Position numbers and translations under genes: made by a program
Assembly: GCF_003351785.1 (NCBI RefSeq)
Contig: NZ_CP031230.1
Location: forward strand, 2,588,501 to 2,652,500
Reading direction: 5' to 3'
DNA from: Sporosarcina sp. PTS2304
GTDB lineage: Bacteria; Bacillota; Bacilli; Bacillales_A; Planococcaceae
DNA length: 64,000 bases
Shown here: positions 28,339 through 52,975 of the stretch, one piece after another
Layout of the letters: each line of letters opens with the position of its first letter
How positions within the stretch are numbered: position 1 is the first letter of the stretch
Notes under the pieces: generated by a model
Told to the model about the DNA's origin: nothing
Databases searched by the model: none
Seen by the model: only the letters and a program-made list of their open reading frames with translations

Positions 28339-30750
28339 ATGCCATTAAAAACATCCGTATTCAATCCATCGCTATCCGCACTATTCCAAGAAACCTTTTG
28401 TGTATCTTTGATCGATTTGAGCGGTCGCATGACGTATGTTAATCAGAACTTTTGTGAACTGACTGGCTATGCCGAAGAAGAGCTGCTCGGGAACACGTGG
28501 GAAATGTTAACTACACGGCGCCGTACTAAAGATTTGCTTCAAATATTAGAAGTACATTTCTCTTACAATAAAGTGTATCAGGAGTCTATACGCATCTATT
28601 CTAAAGAGAAGCAAAAGTATTGGGTGGATTCTACAATTGTTCCTATTTACGATTCGAACGAACAACTCACGCACTACTTATCATTAGATATTGATATTTC
28701 AGGATCCAAACGTGTTTCACATGAGTATGCAAAAACAAGAAATGATCTACATAATTTCAAGTATGCGTTGGATGAAGCTGCCGTAGTTGCGATTTGTAAT
28801 GCACAAGGAGTTATCACGTATGTCAACGACCACTTTTGCAAACTATCCAAGTATTCGCGGGCAGAGCTAGTAGGAAAAACCCATCGTGTAGTTAACTCGG
28901 GCACTCATCCAAAAAGTTTTTTTAAAGAAATGTGGGAAACGATTCAGTCTGGAAAGGTTTGGCGTGGAAATATTCGTAACTTGTCTAAAACAGGTGAGTA
29001 TTATTGGGTTAACACTACCATCGTTCCATTCATTGGATTGGACGGAAAACCCTTCCAATATATTTCCATTAGACAAGACATTACCTCCCATGAAGCGGCT
29101 AAAGAATCATTAGAAAAAGCATTGAAAAATGATTTTAAAACGACAGTAAAAAATCTGCAAAATGCGATCTTTAAATACTCTCTTGACGAAAACAATCAAA
29201 TCAATGTTACTATGCTTGAAGGAAAAATAACAGAAAAGCTCGGCATGACAATAGAAACCATTAAACAAATGGCGCTTAGTAGAAATTCTAATCTTACCAG
29301 TTTCAAGCGGCAGCTAGTGGAAGGACTGCTAGGACGCAGCTCACAGTTCGAAGTGGAGTATATGTCGTATACATTTTTAGTCTATCTTTCACCAATTTTC
29401 GAAGAAGGACGTGTCGTGGAAGTTGTCGGAACAGCCATTGATATTTCAGATCGTAAAAAGGCAGAACAACTTGTAGAACATATGGCTTTTCATGATCATC
29501 TTACAGGACTTCCGAATAGGCGGTTACTTAAGCAAACCATTGAATACACAATTGACAGAAGAGTTAAAACTAAAGAACCTTTTGCATTACTTTATATTGA
29601 CCTAGATCGTTTCAAAAACATTAACGATTCGATGGGACATTATATTGGAGATCAATTATTAAAGTCTGTCGGAGAGCGATTGAAGTTACTCGTTAGACAA
29701 AGTGATTTAGTCGCACGACTGAGCGGGGATGAATTTATCATATTCTGTACGTCTACTGATAAAAAAGGTGTGCAGCTCGTCGCACAGCGAATTGTAGAAG
29801 AAGTATCTAAGTCATTTTTAATCAATAACTTAGAAATCTTCATTGCGCCTAGCATTGGCATTAGTATGTTTCCTGAAGATGGATCGACGTATGACTCTCT
29901 CATACGCAATGCAGACTCTGCTATGTATTTGGCTAAGCAATCCGGGAAAAGTACGTATCAATTTTTCACTGAAGAACTGTACAATGAATTAATGGAACGT
30001 ACTTTGATAGAGATGGAACTTCGACAAGTACTGAAGAGGAATGAATTGGTTCTTCATTATCAGCCCCAATTAGATTTTAAAACAGGAAAGATGAATGGTG
30101 TAGAAGCTCTTTTGCGCTGGAATCACTCATCCCGTGGCATGATTTCTCCTGGAAAATTTATTCCGATAGCAGAGGAGACGGGGCTGATTCTTCCAATTGG
30201 ATTATGGGTATTGGAGACGGCCTGCAAACAAGCGAAAGAATGGCAAGATCTTGGGTATCCACCGATCCAAATGAGTGTCAATGTGTCATTGCGCCAATTT
30301 AATAGTCAGACTTTCATTTCAGATATTAAAGAAACGCTACGGAAAACGGGGTTACAGCCTCACTACTTAAACATAGAAATTACAGAAAGCATGACCTCTG
30401 ATGTAGATTATTGCCAACGTATTTTACAAGAGATACGGGAATTGGGAATTAGCACAAGTATTGATGATTTCGGTACAGGATACTCTTCTTTAAGTCATCT
30501 GAGTAAGTTTCCTATTACTCATTTGAAGATTGATCAGTCGTTCATAAGAGAGTTATGCACGAGTTCGGTCATCGTAAAAGCGATCATCGACTTAGGTAAG
30601 AATTTACATTTACGAGTGATCGCTGAAGGAGTAGAAACTGAAGAACAGGCAGAGTTACTGAGAACTCTTGAATGTGATGAAGCGCAGGGATTCCTCTATG
30701 CACGGCCGTTGCCAAGTCATGAAATCATACAACGTTTAAAACATATTTAG
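28339..30750 (+). CDS. PAS-PAS-GGDEF-EAL c-di-GMP signalling protein
   Basis: 803-residue cytoplasmic protein without clear membrane segments. PAS 1 about 10-120, PAS 2 about 135-250 (both with N-x-x-F-C-x-L-(T/S)-x-Y and a PAC tail), a third divergent PAS-like region to about 375, GGDEF about 380-540 and EAL about 545-800. The GGDEF box is SGDEF with an upstream RQSD that fits the RxxD inhibitory site. The EAL domain keeps [20 protein letters not shown] and KIDQSF, so phosphodiesterase activity is likely. Whether the cyclase is active is uncertain. The stop codon abuts a repeat copy. Confidence 0.93.
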
Positions 30751-33330: not shown

Positions 33331-34889
33331 TCAGAAACAACGATAGTTTTATTACGTCCCGTGCGTTTTGCCTCATACAAACATTGATCCGCAAGCTCAA
33401 TTAGGCGAGCAGGATGTTCCGCATGTAACGGGTAGGCAGCTACACCTGAAGAAATCGTTACGACTTCTCCACAAGGACTGATTGTACTTTCCAATTTCTC
33501 ACGCAAACGCTCTGCCACTAGATAAGCTGTCACTTTGTCAGCCTTCGGAAGTAAAATTATAAACTCTTCTCCACCGTAACGACAACAGATGTCTCCTTTT
33601 CTAGCAGCCTTCTGCATTGCTTCCGCAAGATAAATTAATACTTCATCGCCTACCGCATGACCGTATCGATCGTTCACTCGCTTGAATTTATCAATATCAA
33701 ATATGATTAAAGCAAAAGGTGTATCATGTTCTATCCATTCTTTGATGAATCCGTCCATTGTCCGCCGGTTAGTTAATTTCGTTAACGGATCTGTCGTAGA
33801 CTCGTGAATAAAGTAGTTCATTTCGTTTTTGAAATAATCAATACTATGAAGCATCGCACCCTTTAATTGTCTCGCTTCATAATACCAGTCAGAAATAGCT
33901 TCCATTTTTTCTTTCTGATCTGCTTGTGCGCTGGACTCTGTATAGTACGCTAATTTTTGTAGCGGCAATGCAATCTTTCTCGAAACATACCAGACGATGA
34001 CAAACGCCAAAAAGAGGAGAGGCAAAGATCTCCATATCATTTCAAACACCATATCACTAGCTGGCGAAACCGCTAAACTTTCTTCTCTTTGCGATATGAC
34101 TCCCCAATTTGCAATCGGAACATAGGAATAGCCCGCAAGCATTCGTACACCTTTCGTATTGACGAGTGGTTGTGAACCACTGATTCCAGTGATCACTTTT
34201 TGCACTACTTCGTTGCTGGAAACGTCGTCTTTCAGTCGATTTTCTAATTGATGATAAATGAGGGAACCTTCTTTATCTACAACGTAGACATACGATCCAT
34301 TCTCATAGAAGTGGTCTCCTAATATTTTCTCCAGTATGTTCGGTTTATTCAGATAGATCGCACCACCAAGAAATCCTCGGTACGTACCATCGTCAGTTAA
34401 CAGCGGCACGCTAATATACACGATCAATTCACCCGTAATCCCCACATACGGCTGTGAAATTAATGGTCTTTTTTCTTTGAGCGCTTGTCGGGCTCCAATA
34501 GATGTCAACTTCTCTCCAATTAATTTTAAACTTGGAGGCGAAACAGCTTGCACTACACCTTCAGCTGATACGATGGAAACCGAGTTAAATGTACTCGTTT
34601 GCATTCTGACTCGTTCTACTATTCTAAGCAGTTCAGATTGTGCGTCTTCCTTATCTAATAAGGGCACTACATCTATCGCGTTTGTTTCTAATGTTTGAAG
34701 CGTTTCAGTTAAATAGGTATTGGTCGTGGAGGCTAATTTCTCAGCATACGCTTTATTCGTATCTAAAGTTGACTCGATTAATGTATTTTTATTAACACGA
34801 TAGCCTACAGTCGCACTCGTTAAAAAAGTTAACAGGATCGCTAGGATCGCTACTAACTGAATTAATTTTTTTAAAGACCATCTCATCAC
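33312..34889 (-). CDS. Membrane sensor diguanylate cyclase (Cache-GGDEF)
   Basis: Makes c-di-GMP in response to an external signal. About 525 residues: TM1 near the N-terminus, an extracellular dCache-type domain (about 35-270, with GITGELIVYISVPL and GSYVYVVDKEGSLIYH), TM2 (about 285-305), and a GGDEF domain with the active-site YGGEEF and an upstream RKGD that fits the RxxD inhibitory site. The start is GTG 34889 (9 bp after AAGGGA); ATG 34886 is the alternative. A TTG at 34925 is in frame but has no site. It keeps all residues expected for activity. Confidence 0.92.
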   Translation of the reverse strand: MMRWSLKKLIQLVAILAILLTFLTSATVGYRVNKNTLIESTLDTNKAYAEKLASTTNTYLTETLQTLETNAIDVVPLLDKEDAQSELLRIVERVRMQTSTFNSVSIVSAEGVVQAVSPPSLKLIGEKLTSIGARQALKEKRPLISQPYVGITGELIVYISVPLLTDDGTYRGFLGGAIYLNKPNILEKILGDHFYENGSYVYVVDKEGSLIYHQLENRLKDDVSSNEVVQKVITGISGSQPLVNTKGVRMLAGYSYVPIANWGVISQREESLAVSPASDMVFEMIWRSLPLLFLAFVIVWYVSRKIALPLQKLAYYTESSAQADQKEKMEAISDWYYEARQLKGAMLHSIDYFKNEMNYFIHESTTDPLTKLTNRRTMDGFIKEWIEHDTPFALIIFDIDKFKRVNDRYGHAVGDEVLIYLAEAMQKAARKGDICCRYGGEEFIILLPKADKVTAYLVAERLREKLESTISPCGEVVTISSGVAAYPLHAEHPARLIELADQCLYEAKRTGRNKTIVVSDEPRHE

Positions 34890-46575: not shown

Positions 46576-46615
46576 AGAAGAAAAGACTACTATTCTACGA
46601 TTGGAGGATTTATAC

Positions 46616-48673
46616 ATGACGAATGATCGCAAAATAGATGGAGACAGCAAAAACAAACAACTCGAAACTTTTCGTGTCAATGATCATGAGCATGCGATGA
46701 CAACGAATCAAGGATTAAAGGTATCAGAAGACGAACATTCATTGAAGGCTGGTACGCGCGGCCCCACTCTTATGGAGGATTTTCATTTCCGTGAGAAAAT
46801 GACACATTTTGACCACGAACGCATCCCGGAAAGAGTCGTTCACGCGCGTGGATATGCAGCACACGGAGAATTTGAGCTGTATGAATCAATGAAAAAGTAT
46901 ACAAAAGCAGGCTTCTTACAAGAGCCCGGTTCAAAAACCCCAGTCTTTACACGTTTTTCCACAGTTGCCGGAAGTAAAGGATCCGCTGAAGCCGTGCGTG
47001 ATGTACGCGGATTCGCGGTAAAATTTTATACAGAAGAAGGAAATTATGATTTAGTAGGAAATAATATGCCGGTATTTTTCATTCAAGACGCTATAAAGTT
47101 CCCGGATTTAGTGCACGCAGTAAAACCTGAGCCACATAATGAAATGCCACAAGCCGCATCTGCTCATGATACATTTTGGGATTTTGTCGCGAATAATCAA
47201 GAGTCCGCGCATATGGTCATGTGGCAAATGTCTGATCGAGCCATTCCAAGAAGCCTTCGAATGATGGAAGGTTTCGGTGTTCATACGTACCGCTTCATTA
47301 ATGACCAAGGAGAAGCCCATTTCGTCAAGTTCCACTGGAAACCAAAGCTAGGTGTTCATTCATTAGTTTGGGATGAAGCTCAGAAGATTAACGGAAAAGA
47401 CCCGGATTTCCACCGACGGGATTTATGGGAGTCTATAGAAAATGGAGATTTCGTAGAGTTTGAGCTAGGTGTTCAGCTACTTGAGGAAAAAGATGAATTT
47501 GCATTCGATTTTGATATTTTAGATCCTACGAAGATTTGGCCAGAAGAAGATATACCGGTCAAAATTATAGGGAAAATGACGCTGAACCGTAATGTGGATA
47601 ATGTGTTTGCAGAAACAGAACAAGTAGCGTTCCATCCAGGCAGTGTAGTACCAGGAATCGACTTCTCAAACGACCCGTTACTACAAGGGAGACTGTTTTC
47701 CTACACAGACACTCAACTGATCAGACTTGGCGGGCCGAACTTCCATGAGTTACCGATCAACCGTCCGGTATGTCCATTCCACAATAATCAGCGCGACGGG
47801 TACGGCAGACAGACTATTAACGTCGGACAAGTGAGTTACCATAAAAATTCTCTAGCTAATAACAAGCCAAATACGTCAACAGAAGAGGACGGCGGATTTG
47901 TGCATTATCAGGAAAAAGTGGAAGGCCGTAAAATACAGGCACGCAGCGATTCATTTAAAGACCATTTCTCACAAGCACGTCTATTCTGGAACAGTATGTC
48001 CTCTGCTGAAAAGCAACATATTATCAATGCCTTCAGTTTTGAAGTCGGCAAAGTAAAAGACATGAACGTTCGACAGCAAGTTATTACGATGTTCGCGAAT
48101 GTAGACCTAGAAATGGTTACAGAAATAGCACAAAATGTCGGAGTAAAAGCCCCTAGCGATGTGGAGCAATCCAGTGTCACTAAGTCTTCCCCAGCCCTCA
48201 GTCAGGAAAATAAAGCTAAATTGCCAAACACCCGCAAAATAGCTGTCTTGCTGGCAGATGACTTTGATGATGCAGCACTGGAACCGTTTTTAAAAGCTTC
48301 ATTGGATGCTGGTATGTCTATCGATATCGTTAGCGAAACTTTTGGTACACTAACTGGTAAAAACGGCGCGACTGTTGATGTCGATGAAACCCTTTTAACT
48401 ATTCATTCTGTATTGTACGATGCGTTGTACGTTGTAGGAGGACAAGCAAAACAACAAAAGAAATTTGAAATGGACGTAGTAGATTTTGTTAACGAGGCAT
48501 ACATGCACTTCAAACCAATTGCTTCCGCACCCGCAGCGAAACACTTAATGGATCAATCAAATGTTAAAGCAGGTTCTGGTATTTTAATGGACTTCACCGT
48601 TTCGAGAGATGGAAAGCAATGGGTAGAAGCTGTTGCTGAACACCGTTTTTGGGATCGGAAACTATATGAGTAA
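46616..48673 (+). CDS. katE: Large-subunit heme catalase KatE
   Basis: Breaks down hydrogen peroxide. It has 685 residues, the length of clade II catalases: core catalase (about 25-500) plus a C-terminal flavodoxin/DJ-1-like domain (about 530-685, beginning RKIAVLLADDFDDAAL). The distal His is at about residue 76 in RIPERVVHARG, and the proximal heme Tyr lies in RLFSYTDTQ near residue 362. ATG 46616 has GGAGG 8 bp ahead. The frame is open upstream into the previous gene, but that part is not catalase. A sigma-B-like promoter precedes it. Confidence 0.95.
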   Translation: MTNDRKIDGDSKNKQLETFRVNDHEHAMTTNQGLKVSEDEHSLKAGTRGPTLMEDFHFREKMTHFDHERIPERVVHARGYAAHGEFELYESMKKYTKAGFLQEPGSKTPVFTRFSTVAGSKGSAEAVRDVRGFAVKFYTEEGNYDLVGNNMPVFFIQDAIKFPDLVHAVKPEPHNEMPQAASAHDTFWDFVANNQESAHMVMWQMSDRAIPRSLRMMEGFGVHTYRFINDQGEAHFVKFHWKPKLGVHSLVWDEAQKINGKDPDFHRRDLWESIENGDFVEFELGVQLLEEKDEFAFDFDILDPTKIWPEEDIPVKIIGKMTLNRNVDNVFAETEQVAFHPGSVVPGIDFSNDPLLQGRLFSYTDTQLIRLGGPNFHELPINRPVCPFHNNQRDGYGRQTINVGQVSYHKNSLANNKPNTSTEEDGGFVHYQEKVEGRKIQARSDSFKDHFSQARLFWNSMSSAEKQHIINAFSFEVGKVKDMNVRQQVITMFANVDLEMVTEIAQNVGVKAPSDVEQSSVTKSSPALSQENKAKLPNTRKIAVLLADDFDDAALEPFLKASLDAGMSIDIVSETFGTLTGKNGATVDVDETLLTIHSVLYDALYVVGGQAKQQKKFEMDVVDFVNEAYMHFKPIASAPAAKHLMDQSNVKAGSGILMDFTVSRDGKQWVEAVAEHRFWDRKLYE

Positions 48674-48835: not shown

Positions 48836-49720
48836 CTACACTTTCTCCAAAATCCCGATAAACTTAGTGGCAGCTGGTGATAACGAAACACCTTTTAAAT
48901 AACAAACGCCTATACTGCGCTTTGGAATGGGGTCTAGAAATTCTACTTCATGTAATTTTCCTGAATCTAAATAATCGGCTGAGAACTCTTTTACTACGCA
49001 AGCTATACCTAAATTAATATGCGCAAATTCCAATAATAATTCATGCGATCCTAGTTCAAACTCAGGATGTATTTTAATACCTTGTTTCGATAAAAAGTCT
49101 TCTACATATTGCCTGGAGTTGGATTTAGACTCCAGTAAAATAAGTGGCAATCTCGTCAGCTCTCGCAATGGGACAGGACGGAGAAATAGTTTTTTGAATC
49201 GTTCTCCATAAACGAAAGTATCTTGCACGTCAAAACACGCACGTTGTTCCAATGAATGATCTTCTACAGGAAAATTACATATCGCAATATCTACTTCCCC
49301 TGATTTCAATGAAGCGATAAGTTCCATTGTCGTGCCGTTAATAATTTTGAAACGAATACTGGGGTAGTTGGTATGAAATGCTTCTAGAAAGGGCAATAAA
49401 TAATAACGAGAGATTGTATCCCCCACTCCAATTTTCAATTCGCCTGCAGATAAACTTTTTAATTCTAGTAACTTTTCATTTCCAGCATCGATTAAATTCA
49501 GTGCTGAATTCACATACTCAAACAACATCATCCCTTCATCCGTCAAAGTGACACCTTTGGAAGTGCGATTAAAAAGGCGTGTATCCAATGCTCGCTCGAG
49601 TTGCGAAATAATTTGACTGATCGCTGGCTGCGTCATGAATAATTGTCTCGCTGCCTTCGAAAAACTTTCATTTTGAACGACGGTTTGAAAAACTTTGTAC
49701 CACTCTAAATTTATCGACAC
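48836..49720 (-). CDS. LysR-family transcriptional regulator
   Basis: 294 residues: helix-turn-helix at 1-60 (FSKAARQLFMTQPAISQIISQLE), linker helix and a two-lobed substrate-binding domain with LKIGVGDTISRYYLLPFLEAF. The pattern is close to CysL/CbbR-type regulators. It is divergent from the F420-ligase-like gene, so it probably controls that gene from the shared 112-bp region. The inducer is unknown. Confidence 0.9.
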   Translation of the reverse strand: MSINLEWYKVFQTVVQNESFSKAARQLFMTQPAISQIISQLERALDTRLFNRTSKGVTLTDEGMMLFEYVNSALNLIDAGNEKLLELKSLSAGELKIGVGDTISRYYLLPFLEAFHTNYPSIRFKIINGTTMELIASLKSGEVDIAICNFPVEDHSLEQRACFDVQDTFVYGERFKKLFLRPVPLRELTRLPLILLESKSNSRQYVEDFLSKQGIKIHPEFELGSHELLLEFAHINLGIACVVKEFSADYLDSGKLHEVEFLDPIPKRSIGVCYLKGVSLSPAATKFIGILEKV

Positions 49721-49832: not shown

Positions 49833-51023
49833 TTGGGAAGAGTAGTAGGTACCGTAGTTAGAGGTTTGCGTTGTCCAATCATCAATGAAGGCGATAATAT
49901 TGAACAAATCGTAGTAGATAGCGTATTAGACGCTTCTAGAGTTGAAAACATTTCATTTCAAGATAAAGATATAGTATCTATAACAGAATCGATTGTGGCG
50001 CGTGCACAAGGAAATTACGCGACGATCGATGATATTGCTAAGGATATTAAGGCAAAGTTCGGTGATGATACAATTGGCGTAATCTTCCCTATCCTGAGTC
50101 GTAACCGTTTTGGTAACTGTTTACGTGGAATTGCCAAAGGTGCAAAGAAGATTATCTTAATGCTTAGCTATCCTTCTGACGAGGTAGGTAATCATTTAGT
50201 TGAACTTGACCGTTTGGATGAAAAAGGAGTGAATCCTTGGACAGACGTTTTAACTGAAGTCGAGTTCCGTGAACACTTCGGTGATAATAAACACCCATTT
50301 ACTGGCGTAGATTATATTGAATACTACAAGTCCTTAATGGATGAGTTTGGCGTGGAGCATGAAGTTATTTTCTCAAACAACGCCAAAACAATTTTAGATT
50401 ATACGAAAACTGTTTTGACTTGTGATATCCATACACGTTTTAGAACGAAGCGGATTCTAGAAGCTAACGGTGCTGAGAAAATTTTTAGCTTAGACGATAT
50501 TTTGGCAGAGTCCATCGACGGCAGCGGCTATAACGAACAATTTGGTTTACTAGGGGCAAATAAAGCGCAAGAAGATAGTATTAAACTGTTCCCACACAGT
50601 TGCCAGCCGGTTGTTGACAATATTCAAGAAATGTTGAAAAAGGCAACAGGAAAACAGATCGAAGTTATGGTGTATGGAGACGGTGCATTCAAAGACCCGG
50701 TAGGAAAGATTTGGGAACTGGCTGATCCAGTAGTATCCCCTGCCTATACGAGTGGTCTGGATGGTATTCCGAACGAAGTGAAGCTAAAGTATTTGGCAGA
50801 TAATGATTTCTCTGATTTACGCGGAGAGGAGTTAAAGAAAGCTATTTCCGAGTTTATCGAGAAAAAGGACACTGATTTGATGGGATCCATGGCTTCACAA
50901 GGCACAACACCTCGTAAGCTAACAGACTTGATTGGTTCACTATCCGATTTAACTTCTGGTAGCGGCGATAAAGGAACACCTATCGTATTTATCCAAGGTT
51001 ACTTTGACAACTATACTAACTAA
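49833..51023 (+). CDS. Coenzyme F420-0:L-glutamate ligase-like protein
   Basis: 396 residues belonging to the CofE/FbiB-type gamma-glutamyl ligase superfamily: an N-terminal [46 protein letters not shown] and the later [12 protein letters not shown] are family-like. TTG start with AAGGAG 8 bp ahead. No other F420 biosynthesis gene (cofC, cofD, cofG/H) is in the window, and Bacillales of this kind are not known F420 makers. The real substrate is probably another compound with a glutamate acceptor. It is divergent from a LysR regulator. Confidence 0.72.
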
Positions 51024-51030
51024 TATTTTA

Positions 51031-51066
51031 CATCTGTGAGACACGAGCTCACAGATGTTTTTTTAT
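51031..51066 (+). terminator. Terminator of the F420-ligase-like gene
   Basis: Stem CATCTGTGAG / CTCACAGATG around ACACGAG, followed by a run of seven or eight T, 8 bp after the stop. Confidence 0.9.
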
Positions 51067-51086: not shown

Positions 51087-51126
51087 TTGTCTAAACAATT
51101 ATGCTACAATATAAGTAATTTTACTT
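51087..51126 (+). promoter_or_regulatory. Promoter of the rsbQ-like gene with a start-site palindrome
   Basis: TTGTCT (51087-51092), 17-bp spacer, TATAAG (51110-51115). The palindrome AAGTAA-TT-TTACTT (51113-51126) overlaps the -10 and probable start site, so a repressor could act here. The regulator is unknown. Confidence 0.5.
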
Positions 51127-51152
51127 TTGCTAGTTAGAAGGGACTTGAGTCT

Positions 51153-51947
51153 ATGACGGCTGATATTATAAAACGTAACAATGTACATATTATTGGATCG
51201 GGAAAGCAGACAATTGTTTTCGCACATGGTTTTGGCTGCGATCAATCGGTTTGGAAGAAAGTTGTACCTGCTTTTGAAGATGATTATCGAATAGTCTTAT
51301 TTGATTATGTAGGTTCTGGACAAAGTGATAAAATGGCTTTTTCAACCGATCGCTACAACTCGTTGCACGGCTATGCTCAAGACGTAATAGACATTTGTGA
51401 TGCTTTAGACTTACAAAATATTTTATATGTAGGGCACTCGGTTAGTGGTATGATCGGAGTTTTGGCATCTATTAAGCGACCGGAATTAATCGAAAAACTG
51501 ATGATGATCGGCCCTTCTCCGCATTACTTAAATGAACCCGACTATTATGGTGGATTCGAACGCGAAGATATTGACGAGTTGCTTGATATGATGGAGATGA
51601 ACTATAAAGAATGGGCAAAGTATTTAGCCCCACTTGCGATGAAAAACGAAGATCGACCGCATCTGTCAGAAGAATTCGAGACAATGCTCTACACGAATGA
51701 CCCTGGAATTGCTCGTAATTTTGCTGAAGTAACCTTTACATCGGATATTCGTGCAGATTTACCTAACGTAACAGTTAAGACATTAATTATGCAACCTATA
51801 GAGGATTCGATTGTTCCCATAGAAGTAGGCAAATATATAAATGACCGAATTCCAAACAGTGAGTTAGTCATTATGCAGGCAAAAGGCCATAATCCACACA
51901 TAAGCCAGCCTGAAGAGACCATTAAAGAGATCAAACGGTTTATTTAA
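51153..51947 (+). CDS. rsbQ: RsbQ-like alpha/beta hydrolase
   Basis: 264 residues, close to B. subtilis RsbQ along its length (HGFGCDQSVWKKVVPAFEDD, FDYVGSGQSD, YAQDVIDICDALDL, GPSPHYLN). The catalytic triad is intact: Ser96 in VGHSVSG, Asp218 in QPIEDSIVP and His246 in AKGHNPHIS. RsbQ serves the PAS domain of RsbP in energy-stress sensing by an unidentified small molecule. Here the gene 39 bp downstream encodes a PAS-GGDEF protein, not a PP2C phosphatase. Plant karrikin/strigolactone receptors are in the same hydrolase group. Confidence 0.92.
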   Translation: MTADIIKRNNVHIIGSGKQTIVFAHGFGCDQSVWKKVVPAFEDDYRIVLFDYVGSGQSDKMAFSTDRYNSLHGYAQDVIDICDALDLQNILYVGHSVSGMIGVLASIKRPELIEKLMMIGPSPHYLNEPDYYGGFEREDIDELLDMMEMNYKEWAKYLAPLAMKNEDRPHLSEEFETMLYTNDPGIARNFAEVTFTSDIRADLPNVTVKTLIMQPIEDSIVPIEVGKYINDRIPNSELVIMQAKGHNPHISQPEETIKEIKRFI

Positions 51948-51986
51948 GCATACACATACTCATGAATCTTGAAAGGGGCGTAAACA

Positions 51987-52931
51987 ATGAATGAAATTTT
52001 AGATCATTTGCCTTGCGGATACTTCGCCCTGACAAGTGACTGGGAGTTTATCGAGATGAACCAAACGATGAAAGATGTTTTGCAAATAAGCGAGATGCCA
52101 CGACATATGCATGATATCTTAACAGTTCCATCAAAAATATACTTCCAAACTTATTATGTCCCTGCGATTGCTGTTCACGGAATAGTCCGGGAAATGTATT
52201 TAAACTTAAAAGTCGATAAGAAGCCATTACCCATCCTCATGAACGTAAATGAACGTAACGGGAAATACATGGGAATTATTGTGCAAATCAAAGTACGGGA
52301 TGAATATGAAGCTCAGCTATTGCAGTCTAAAAAAGAGGCCGAACGAATCCAAAAAGAGACCGATATAGCGTATAATAAATTATTGCATTTACTCCAAGAA
52401 GTTGAGAGCAAACAACAACAGCTCGTTGATTTGAATGACGAATTACATGAATTGGCCACACGTGATGAATTAACGGGACTATATAATCGGCGCTTTTTCC
52501 ATAGAAGTCTAGACTCTTTAATAGATCGTGCAGAGCTTTTGACCAAGAAGTCTTTTTCATTACTACTATTTGATATAGACCATTTCAAAAAAGTGAATGA
52601 TACATACGGACATCATATTGGTGATGATGTGTTAAAAGAATTAGCGCAGAAGCTGGGGCAGAAGATCAAGGCACCTAACATTGTCGCACGAATAGGTGGA
52701 GAAGAGTTTGCTGTGATCTATGACGACGCCAATCATGAAGATAATATACAAAAGGCCGAAGAACTCCGTATGTTCTTAGAGAAATCGCCTTGGGCTAGTA
52801 TTGCCATTACAGTCAGTATGGGAATTACAAATTTCCAGTCTGGCGATAAAGCTAGTCATATCTACATAAGAGCAGACGACGCCCAATACGCTTCAAAACG
52901 TAACGGACGTAACCGGTTAACTTCTATATAA
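51987..52931 (+). CDS. PAS-GGDEF diguanylate cyclase, partner of RsbQ-like hydrolase
   Basis: 314 residues: PAS domain (about 1-100), a coiled-coil helix (about 105-155) and a GGDEF domain with the active-site GGEEF at 237-241 and TGLYNRRFF, DIDHFKKVND, HHIGDDVL all in place. The RxxD inhibitory site is absent (KAPN at that position). The PAS starts LDHLPCGYFALTSDWEFIEMN and has ILTVPSKIYFQTYY, similar in layout to the RsbP PAS as I recall it. ATG behind AAAGGGG. The gene lies 39 bp after the rsbQ-like gene, with a terminator behind it. Confidence 0.92.
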   Translation: MNEILDHLPCGYFALTSDWEFIEMNQTMKDVLQISEMPRHMHDILTVPSKIYFQTYYVPAIAVHGIVREMYLNLKVDKKPLPILMNVNERNGKYMGIIVQIKVRDEYEAQLLQSKKEAERIQKETDIAYNKLLHLLQEVESKQQQLVDLNDELHELATRDELTGLYNRRFFHRSLDSLIDRAELLTKKSFSLLLFDIDHFKKVNDTYGHHIGDDVLKELAQKLGQKIKAPNIVARIGGEEFAVIYDDANHEDNIQKAEELRMFLEKSPWASIAITVSMGITNFQSGDKASHIYIRADDAQYASKRNGRNRLTSI

Positions 52932-52943
52932 TGAAACAGCAAA

Positions 52944-52975
52944 ATGCCTAAAGGACATTCCTTCAGGCATTTTTA
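52944..52975. terminator. Terminator between the PAS-GGDEF and MFS genes
   Basis: Stem ATGCCTAAAGGA / TCCTTCAGGCAT around CAT, followed by TTTTAC on the plus side and A-run on the other. Confidence 0.82.

Follow-up and report, generated by a model that had tools for sequence, protein, structure and literature searches.

The 64,000-nucleotide stretch of the Sporosarcina sp. PTS2304 genome analysed here (the window; contig NZ_CP031230.1) contains a two-gene unit that consists of an RsbQ-type alpha/beta hydrolase and a PAS-GGDEF protein, and this unit clearly exemplifies a kind of sensor described in 2011. Judged from the sequences and by analogy with studied systems, the unit very probably forms a bipartite RsbQ-PAS sensor that has a diguanylate cyclase as its output; RsbQ would dock on the PAS domain and set the cyclase through a linker helix. 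The hydrolase gene (51,153–51,947, + strand), predicted as an open reading frame (ORF) and supported by homology searches, encodes 264 amino acids (AA), ends with a TAA stop codon and carries the residues Ser96, Asp218 and His246. It is located immediately 5' of the PAS-helix-GGDEF gene (51,987–52,931, + strand; 314 AA, TAA stop codon) on the same strand, with a gap of 39 bp, and a Shine-Dalgarno-like sequence could be seen ahead of both genes. Assessment of the second protein by ORF prediction, Pfam, alignments and AlphaFold revealed an RsbP-type PAS domain (1–~105 AA), a linker helix (106–158 AA) and a GGDEF domain (157–310 AA) with the GGEEF motif at 237–241 AA.

A sequence search of the PDB revealed B. 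subtilis RsbQ (1wom) as the best match of the hydrolase (E = 9.5e-94, residues 4–260), followed by Oleispira 3qvm and then by the plant KAI2/D14 group. The RsbQ/KAI2/D14 group scored at least 183 bits, compared to approximately 71 bits for the next hydrolases. The Ser96/Asp218/His246 triad was identical in all 130 aligned RsbQ sequences, host included. The KAI2/D14 karrikin/strigolactone receptors belong to the same hydrolase group, with approximately 37–44% identity over approximately 260 columns in the listed rows, and this likeness is a kinship of sequence and fold only. The plant relatives act as receptors, and their partners are F-box/SMXL proteins, not PAS domains. The closest named relative of the host RsbQ was that of Sporosarcina obsidiansis (83%), found among eight loci by a short-peptide-pattern scan of genome contigs.

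The Pfam PAS model remained below threshold for the second protein (E = 0.074). Its most N-terminal domain could still be called an RsbP-type PAS because it aligned at full length with the PAS domains of two RsbP-like PAS-PPM relatives, L130 (34% over 125 columns, E = 1e-21) and L224 (26% over 127 columns, E = 4e-17), both of which have SpoIIE-type phosphatase domains. The RsbP-type PAS profile matched the host with E = 1.8e-42, the host being one of its 22 rows. An AlphaFold model based on 56 sequences predicted a PAS fold, one continuous 53-residue helix (106–158) and a GGDEF domain, with a mean predicted local distance difference test (pLDDT) of 90.1 and a predicted template modelling score (pTM) of 0.58. 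The residues distinctive of RsbP-type PAS domains are C10, L13, L48, Q53, F55, C56, Y59, E72 and P86, and also P62, according to the text of PMC3183031. When these positions were mapped through the residue spacing given there and through RsbP-like L130, rather than through B. subtilis RsbP itself, six of the ten were found to be kept in the host (C10, L48, Y59, P62, E72 and P86), while F55 was changed to Tyr (Y52), L13 to F, Q53 to K and C56 to F. Among the four null positions, the host PAS was identical at L48, Y59 and E72. It was four residues shorter ahead of the F-helix than the PAS of L130, and the DIT motif was absent at its end, where the sequence is IIVQIKVRDEYE. In 36 of the 45 published pairs, the PAS is connected to the output domain by a potential coiled coil with a length of 21 residues or more (PMC3183031); the host helix exceeds this length, a call based on the single-chain AlphaFold helix. 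A PDB sequence search for a solved RsbP PAS returned 19 matches up to E = 1, the best at 0.025, none of them named RsbP. The structure matches of VIA-align were dominated by GGDEF domains and therefore gave little information on the PAS; the rows that also spanned it (5llw, 5xgd and 8c05) had root-mean-square deviations of at least 17.8.

The GGDEF domain was recognised by Pfam with E = 3.7e-40, and its GGEEF motif, starting at residue 237, was intact. The position of the I-site reads KAPN, not RxxD. This inhibitory site is common in active diguanylate cyclases but is not required. RxxD was present in 61 of the 107 GG(D/E)EF proteins of the aligned set, host included, and its absence is therefore no property of the class. 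The loss of RxxD would remove product feedback, but also the usual binding site for cyclic di-GMP (c-di-GMP), and the 20 GGDEF matches in the host genome leave room for redundancy, both of which would suit a protein that serves as a c-di-GMP or GTP effector and not as a cyclase. Such a role is very unlikely, as the GGEEF motif and the metal- and GTP-related residues D160, N167, D196, D198, F200, K201, N204, D205 and D213 were invariant in the 56 aligned proteins, host included. The 20 GGDEF matches also make the module one of many c-di-GMP inputs of the host. Two more GGDEF domains occur in the window, at 29,485–29,952 (+ strand) and 33,348–33,797 (− strand), in frames of 803 and 537 AA.

No SpoIIE match could be found by Pfam in the host PAS-GGDEF protein, and its output is thus not a PPM phosphatase. 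A sigma-B gene that passed the cut-off used for the family was present in the host genome and in 192 of 200 genomes of its family. The host genome also had four matches to SpoIIE-type phosphatases, of which two lie next to sigma-B. The possibility that the module supplies a missing energy branch of the sigma-B pathway was considered and dropped because its output is no phosphatase. The first-pass annotation of this DNA had described an RsbQ-type hydrolase with the Ser96/Asp218/His246 triad, 39 bp from a gene in which an RsbP-like PAS is joined to a GGDEF domain with GGEEF intact and RxxD absent, and the ORF coordinates, searches and alignments bear out this description in each of these points.

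The pairing of both genes was surveyed in the 200 family genomes, host included, using cut-offs of E ≤ 1e-40 for RsbQ and E ≤ 1e-12 for the 22-row profile of the RsbP-type PAS. Comparison of the two lists by hand revealed RsbQ in 99 genomes, the PAS in 96, both in 95 and neither in 100. RsbQ occurred without the PAS in four genomes (G026, G097, G105 and G112), and the PAS without RsbQ in one (G145), where the PAS frame contained four internal stops. A stop-free PAS frame of 408 AA on contig 1 of G017 (position 1,170,319) had no listed RsbQ on its contig; two RsbQ genes were present elsewhere in that genome. At the 109 RsbQ places of the relatives, the following gene encoded a PAS-GGDEF protein in 87 cases, a PAS-PPM protein in 14, an RsbR-like STAS protein without PAS in seven and a broken PAS in one (L143). 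An adjacent PAS gene or remnant was thus found at 102 of the 109 places, and the adjacency on which the first-pass annotation had made its reading depend is the rule among relatives. With the host included, the 110 places comprised 88 PAS-GGDEF, 14 PAS-PPM, seven STAS and one broken PAS, and it follows that the module mainly serves c-di-GMP in this family. Pfam analysis of 108 of the 109 next genes (all but L143) gave GGDEF in 85, SpoIIE in 14 and STAS in seven. The two next genes with no Pfam output match were L117, cut by a contig end, and L124, with its GGDEF in a second open frame; together with L062 and L107 (broken frames) and L120 (ending inside the GGDEF motif), they make up five incomplete cyclase places among the 87.

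The genes flanking the pair differ between genera, which suggests that RsbQ and the PAS gene are retained or transferred together; L044–L050, from the host's genus, retain the MFS neighbour. Chance neighbourhood of the two genes was dropped as an explanation, since the co-occurrence counts lie far beyond chance. Mean-field couplings between RsbQ and PAS (130 pairs, effective number approximately 67) were highest for G226-Y56 and G226-H64, which are near-invariant positions, and this covariation signal was set aside because the top couplings were taken to be driven by few odd sequences. At one place (L150, genome G020), the cyclase start overlapped RsbQ and a separate EAL gene, coding for a c-di-GMP phosphodiesterase, was next in the row.

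A phylum sample contained RsbQ in 6 of 398 genomes and was too thin, so a class sample (398 genomes, family members included; RsbQ in 48) was used as well. The partners at 29 RsbQ places outside the family, 28 of them in the class sample and the remaining one, G249, in the phylum sample, were 22 PAS-GGDEF proteins, four proteins with a PAS and helix only, two PAS-histidine kinases and one PAS-PPM protein (L224). Pfam was run on eight of these partners; for the remaining 20 cyclases, the assignment relied on the GGEEF motif, length and a PAS-like start. The Pfam results agreed with the calls for L201, L222, L219, L220 and L224 and gave PAS alone in L200, L221 and L223, while L218 had no Pfam match and its PAS was called by resemblance. 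The four PAS and helix proteins without an output domain (L200, L218, L221 and L223) were 143–179 AA long and came from one other family of the class; in G265 and G705, the PAS-only pair was a second copy beside the cyclase-linked one. RsbQ was followed by a PAS-PAS-histidine kinase at L219 and L220, within the host's own class; the abstract of PMC3183031 gives histidine kinase outputs for Gram-negative bacteria only. A pair of RsbQ and PAS-GGDEF was also found in Pseudoalteromonas (L042). On a quick tree of 137 RsbQ rows, in which many forks were weak, the partner labels were strongly clustered (5 changes compared to a shuffled mean of 26.3). The PPM, STAS and histidine kinase partners each required a single change, and the STAS-linked RsbQ proteins formed one clade inside the cyclase-linked ones. 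Three loci on viral contigs matched, with the GGDEF half only.

The anatomy of the module, its intact triad, RsbP-type PAS and intact GGEEF, and the co-inheritance of RsbQ with the PAS are established at the sequence level. In the mechanism proposed for the pair, RsbQ would bind or turn over a small molecule and make direct contact with the F-helix of an RsbP-type PAS that is part of a dimeric PAS-coil-GGDEF protein. Through this contact, the linker helices could change in conformation or register, so that the paired GGDEF domains may enter or leave a productive dimer and c-di-GMP synthesis would be set in this way; activation is the better guess for the effect of RsbQ on the cyclase. Control through the linker helix is suggested by other PAS, LOV and phytochrome cyclases. 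In B. subtilis, RsbQ and the PAS are in direct contact, which depends on F55 of the F-helix, since its loss abolishes binding; signalling also requires an intact RsbQ triad, and the resulting change is assumed to travel along the coil to the output (text of PMC3183031). By analogy with this RsbQ-RsbP pair, a direct RsbQ-PAS contact and a need for the triad would also be expected in the host.

A co-fold of RsbQ and PAS as one read-through chain modelled the individual parts well (pLDDT 89.5), but with a pTM of 0.68 and a joining stretch of pLDDT below 50, their relative placement could not be trusted and gave no readable interface. Other observations weigh against a simple transfer of the B. 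subtilis contact or against a constant pairing of RsbQ with a PAS. Among 87 cyclase-linked PAS domains, taken from L042 and 86 places in the family, the residue at the F55 position was Ile in 31, Tyr in 27 and Phe in 14, whereas all 14 phosphatase-linked domains had Phe, and the RsbQ-PAS contact may therefore differ in detail. RsbQ had no PAS neighbour at the seven STAS-linked places. In an uncultured proteobacterium (L043, an RsbQ relative of 45% identity), the next same-strand ORF encoded a non-PAS protein. The last case, the G017 PAS frame described above and the fact that generic hydrolase families also score on the host RsbQ would be accommodated by mere co-transcription, with the hydrolase as a metabolic esterase and the PAS sensing redox or a cofactor alone. 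This explanation has very little probability, considering the RsbQ-specific similarity (at least 183 bits, compared to 71 bits for the next hydrolases) and the near-perfect co-occurrence of RsbQ and PAS across differing gene neighbourhoods.

A bipartite module in which RsbQ docks on the PAS can receive its signal in two ways, which the Figure 7 legend of PMC3183031 gives as delivery of a product to the PAS or as contact of a ligand-occupied RsbQ with the PAS. The first-pass annotation had taken a small molecule made by the hydrolase as the signal; this was not established, as the text of PMC3183031 keeps both models and states that no ligand was found. Its reading, that a product of RsbQ sits in the pocket of the PAS and thereby turns the cyclase on or off (Model 1 of PMC3183031, there with direct delivery), is possible, though on balance unlikely. 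It agrees with the triad being identical in 130 of 130 aligned RsbQ sequences and with the null effect of triad substitutions in B. subtilis (PMC3183031, Discussion), but B. subtilis requires RsbQ and the PAS to touch each other, and a ligand of the PAS was not found in that species (PMC3183031). An RsbQ beside an RsbR-like STAS gene has no PAS to take up such a product. The plant KAI2/D14 relatives, furthermore, act as receptors. About an even chance is given to the alternative that RsbQ itself is the receptor, with ligand occupancy reshaping the PAS contact and hydrolysis serving only to reset it, as in KAI2/D14 (Model 2 of PMC3183031). This is consistent with an RsbQ that stays constant while its partners vary (PPM, histidine kinase, diguanylate cyclase, PAS alone and STAS), and with KAI2/D14 as the closest plant structures; the null effect of triad loss in B. 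subtilis is compatible with both models.

In genus g7 of the family, an RsbR-like STAS gene follows the module, in the order rsbQ, PAS-GGDEF, rsbR-like (L052–L055, L057, L058 and L066) or rsbQ, cyclase, rsbQ, rsbR-like (L061 and L069), or it comes immediately after an RsbQ of a second type (L072–L075, L077, L078 and L081). The STAS protein of the seven direct pairs was 284–301 AA long and had no PAS match. An RsbR-like gene was present in 40 of the 46 genomes of this genus (E ≤ 1e-60) and RsbQ in 27 of the 46, indicating that the STAS gene is independent of RsbQ. A wider proposal, offered tentatively and still to be regarded as rather doubtful, is that RsbQ is the bacterial counterpart of KAI2, a receptor in a widespread partner-changing kit. 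In the host's family, it would serve mainly as an input to c-di-GMP; in one genus, a duplicated copy would have abandoned the PAS and lies beside an RsbR-like STAS protein of the stressosome type; and a different family of the class combines it with a PAS-coil that lacks any output domain. If this is true, a single ligand would control both c-di-GMP and the stress response, and the PAS-less partners would separate an RsbQ acting as receptor from an RsbQ whose product fills the PAS.

The extended −10 element TGCTACAAT (51,102–51,110, + strand), found by upstream alignment, marks the inferred promoter of the two-gene unit and was invariant in 10 of 10 aligned Sporosarcina-type upstream regions. 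A consensus promoter scan gave no promoter at the module, with eight found in the region compared to 12.3 expected by chance. A terminator-like hairpin with a T-run (51,030–51,058, + strand) is assigned to the upstream gene and parts the module from it; an inverted repeat followed by T's was visible at this position in the 10-sequence upstream alignment. A second hairpin (52,941–52,973), scored on the − strand only, separates the module from the convergent MFS gene and is possibly a two-way terminator. The terminator scan of the region yielded three terminator-like sites compared to 3.1 expected by chance. The upstream gene (49,959–51,020, + strand) matched the F420-0:gamma-glutamyl ligase family PF01996 (E = 3.2e-49), which is unexpected for a Bacillota genome; with 347 residues against 190 profile positions, the protein must contain long insertions. 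Also upstream of the module, a long catalase with a DJ-1/PfpI-like C-terminal domain (46,604–48,670, + strand) is located beside a LysR-type regulator (48,839–49,720, − strand).

For 45 pairs, the combination of RsbQ and the RsbP-type PAS was described as a bipartite sensor whose output is a phosphatase, a histidine kinase or a diguanylate cyclase (Nadezhdin, Brody & Price 2011, PMC3183031), the cyclases occurring in both Gram lineages. An eLife article of 2025 (PMC12143880) shows an AlphaFold model with two RsbQ between the PAS domains and linkers, proposes that such inputs are exchanged among phosphatases, kinases and GGDEF cyclases, and cites PMC3183031 for the bipartite module. Since the combination was published in 2011 and restated in PMC12143880, the novelty that the first-pass annotation had claimed for an RsbQ paired with a PAS-GGDEF protein does not hold, while its description does. 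The names 'Planococc' and 'Lysinibacillus' are absent from the text of PMC3183031, figures excluded, and the titles and abstract openings of the listed papers on Sporosarcina and c-di-GMP contain nothing on an RsbQ-PAS-GGDEF module. In the literature consulted on these bacterial kin of the plant karrikin receptor, the ligand of RsbQ and the control of its partner were still open questions. They are easier to address in a two-gene unit whose c-di-GMP output can be assayed directly than in the multi-protein sigma-B pathway.

Compared to the RsbQ-RsbP pair of B. subtilis, which forms the energy-stress branch of sigma-B, the host module has RsbQ and the PAS in common, but the output is a PPM phosphatase there and a GGDEF cyclase in the host. 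The Moorella system, in which an RsbT/RsbU-N domain controls a diguanylate cyclase (Quin 2012, as cited in PMC12143880), resembles the host in that a stress-pathway input has moved to a cyclase with a proposed dimeric helical linker; the input proteins are different. The published RsbQ-PAS-cyclase module has, as far as the text of PMC3183031 describes it, the same upstream rsbQ, N-terminal RsbP-type PAS, helical linker and GGDEF output as the host, without an essential difference, F55 corresponding to Y52 in the host. The host module therefore belongs to a known kind, published in 2011 (PMC3183031) and restated in 2025 (PMC12143880). To this kind, the survey adds the prevalence in the host's family of the cyclase form, which is the usual one there in place of the phosphatase form, as well as PAS-only partners, kinase outputs in the host's class and RsbQ beside RsbR-like STAS genes, four points that were not met in the open-licence literature consulted on RsbQ.
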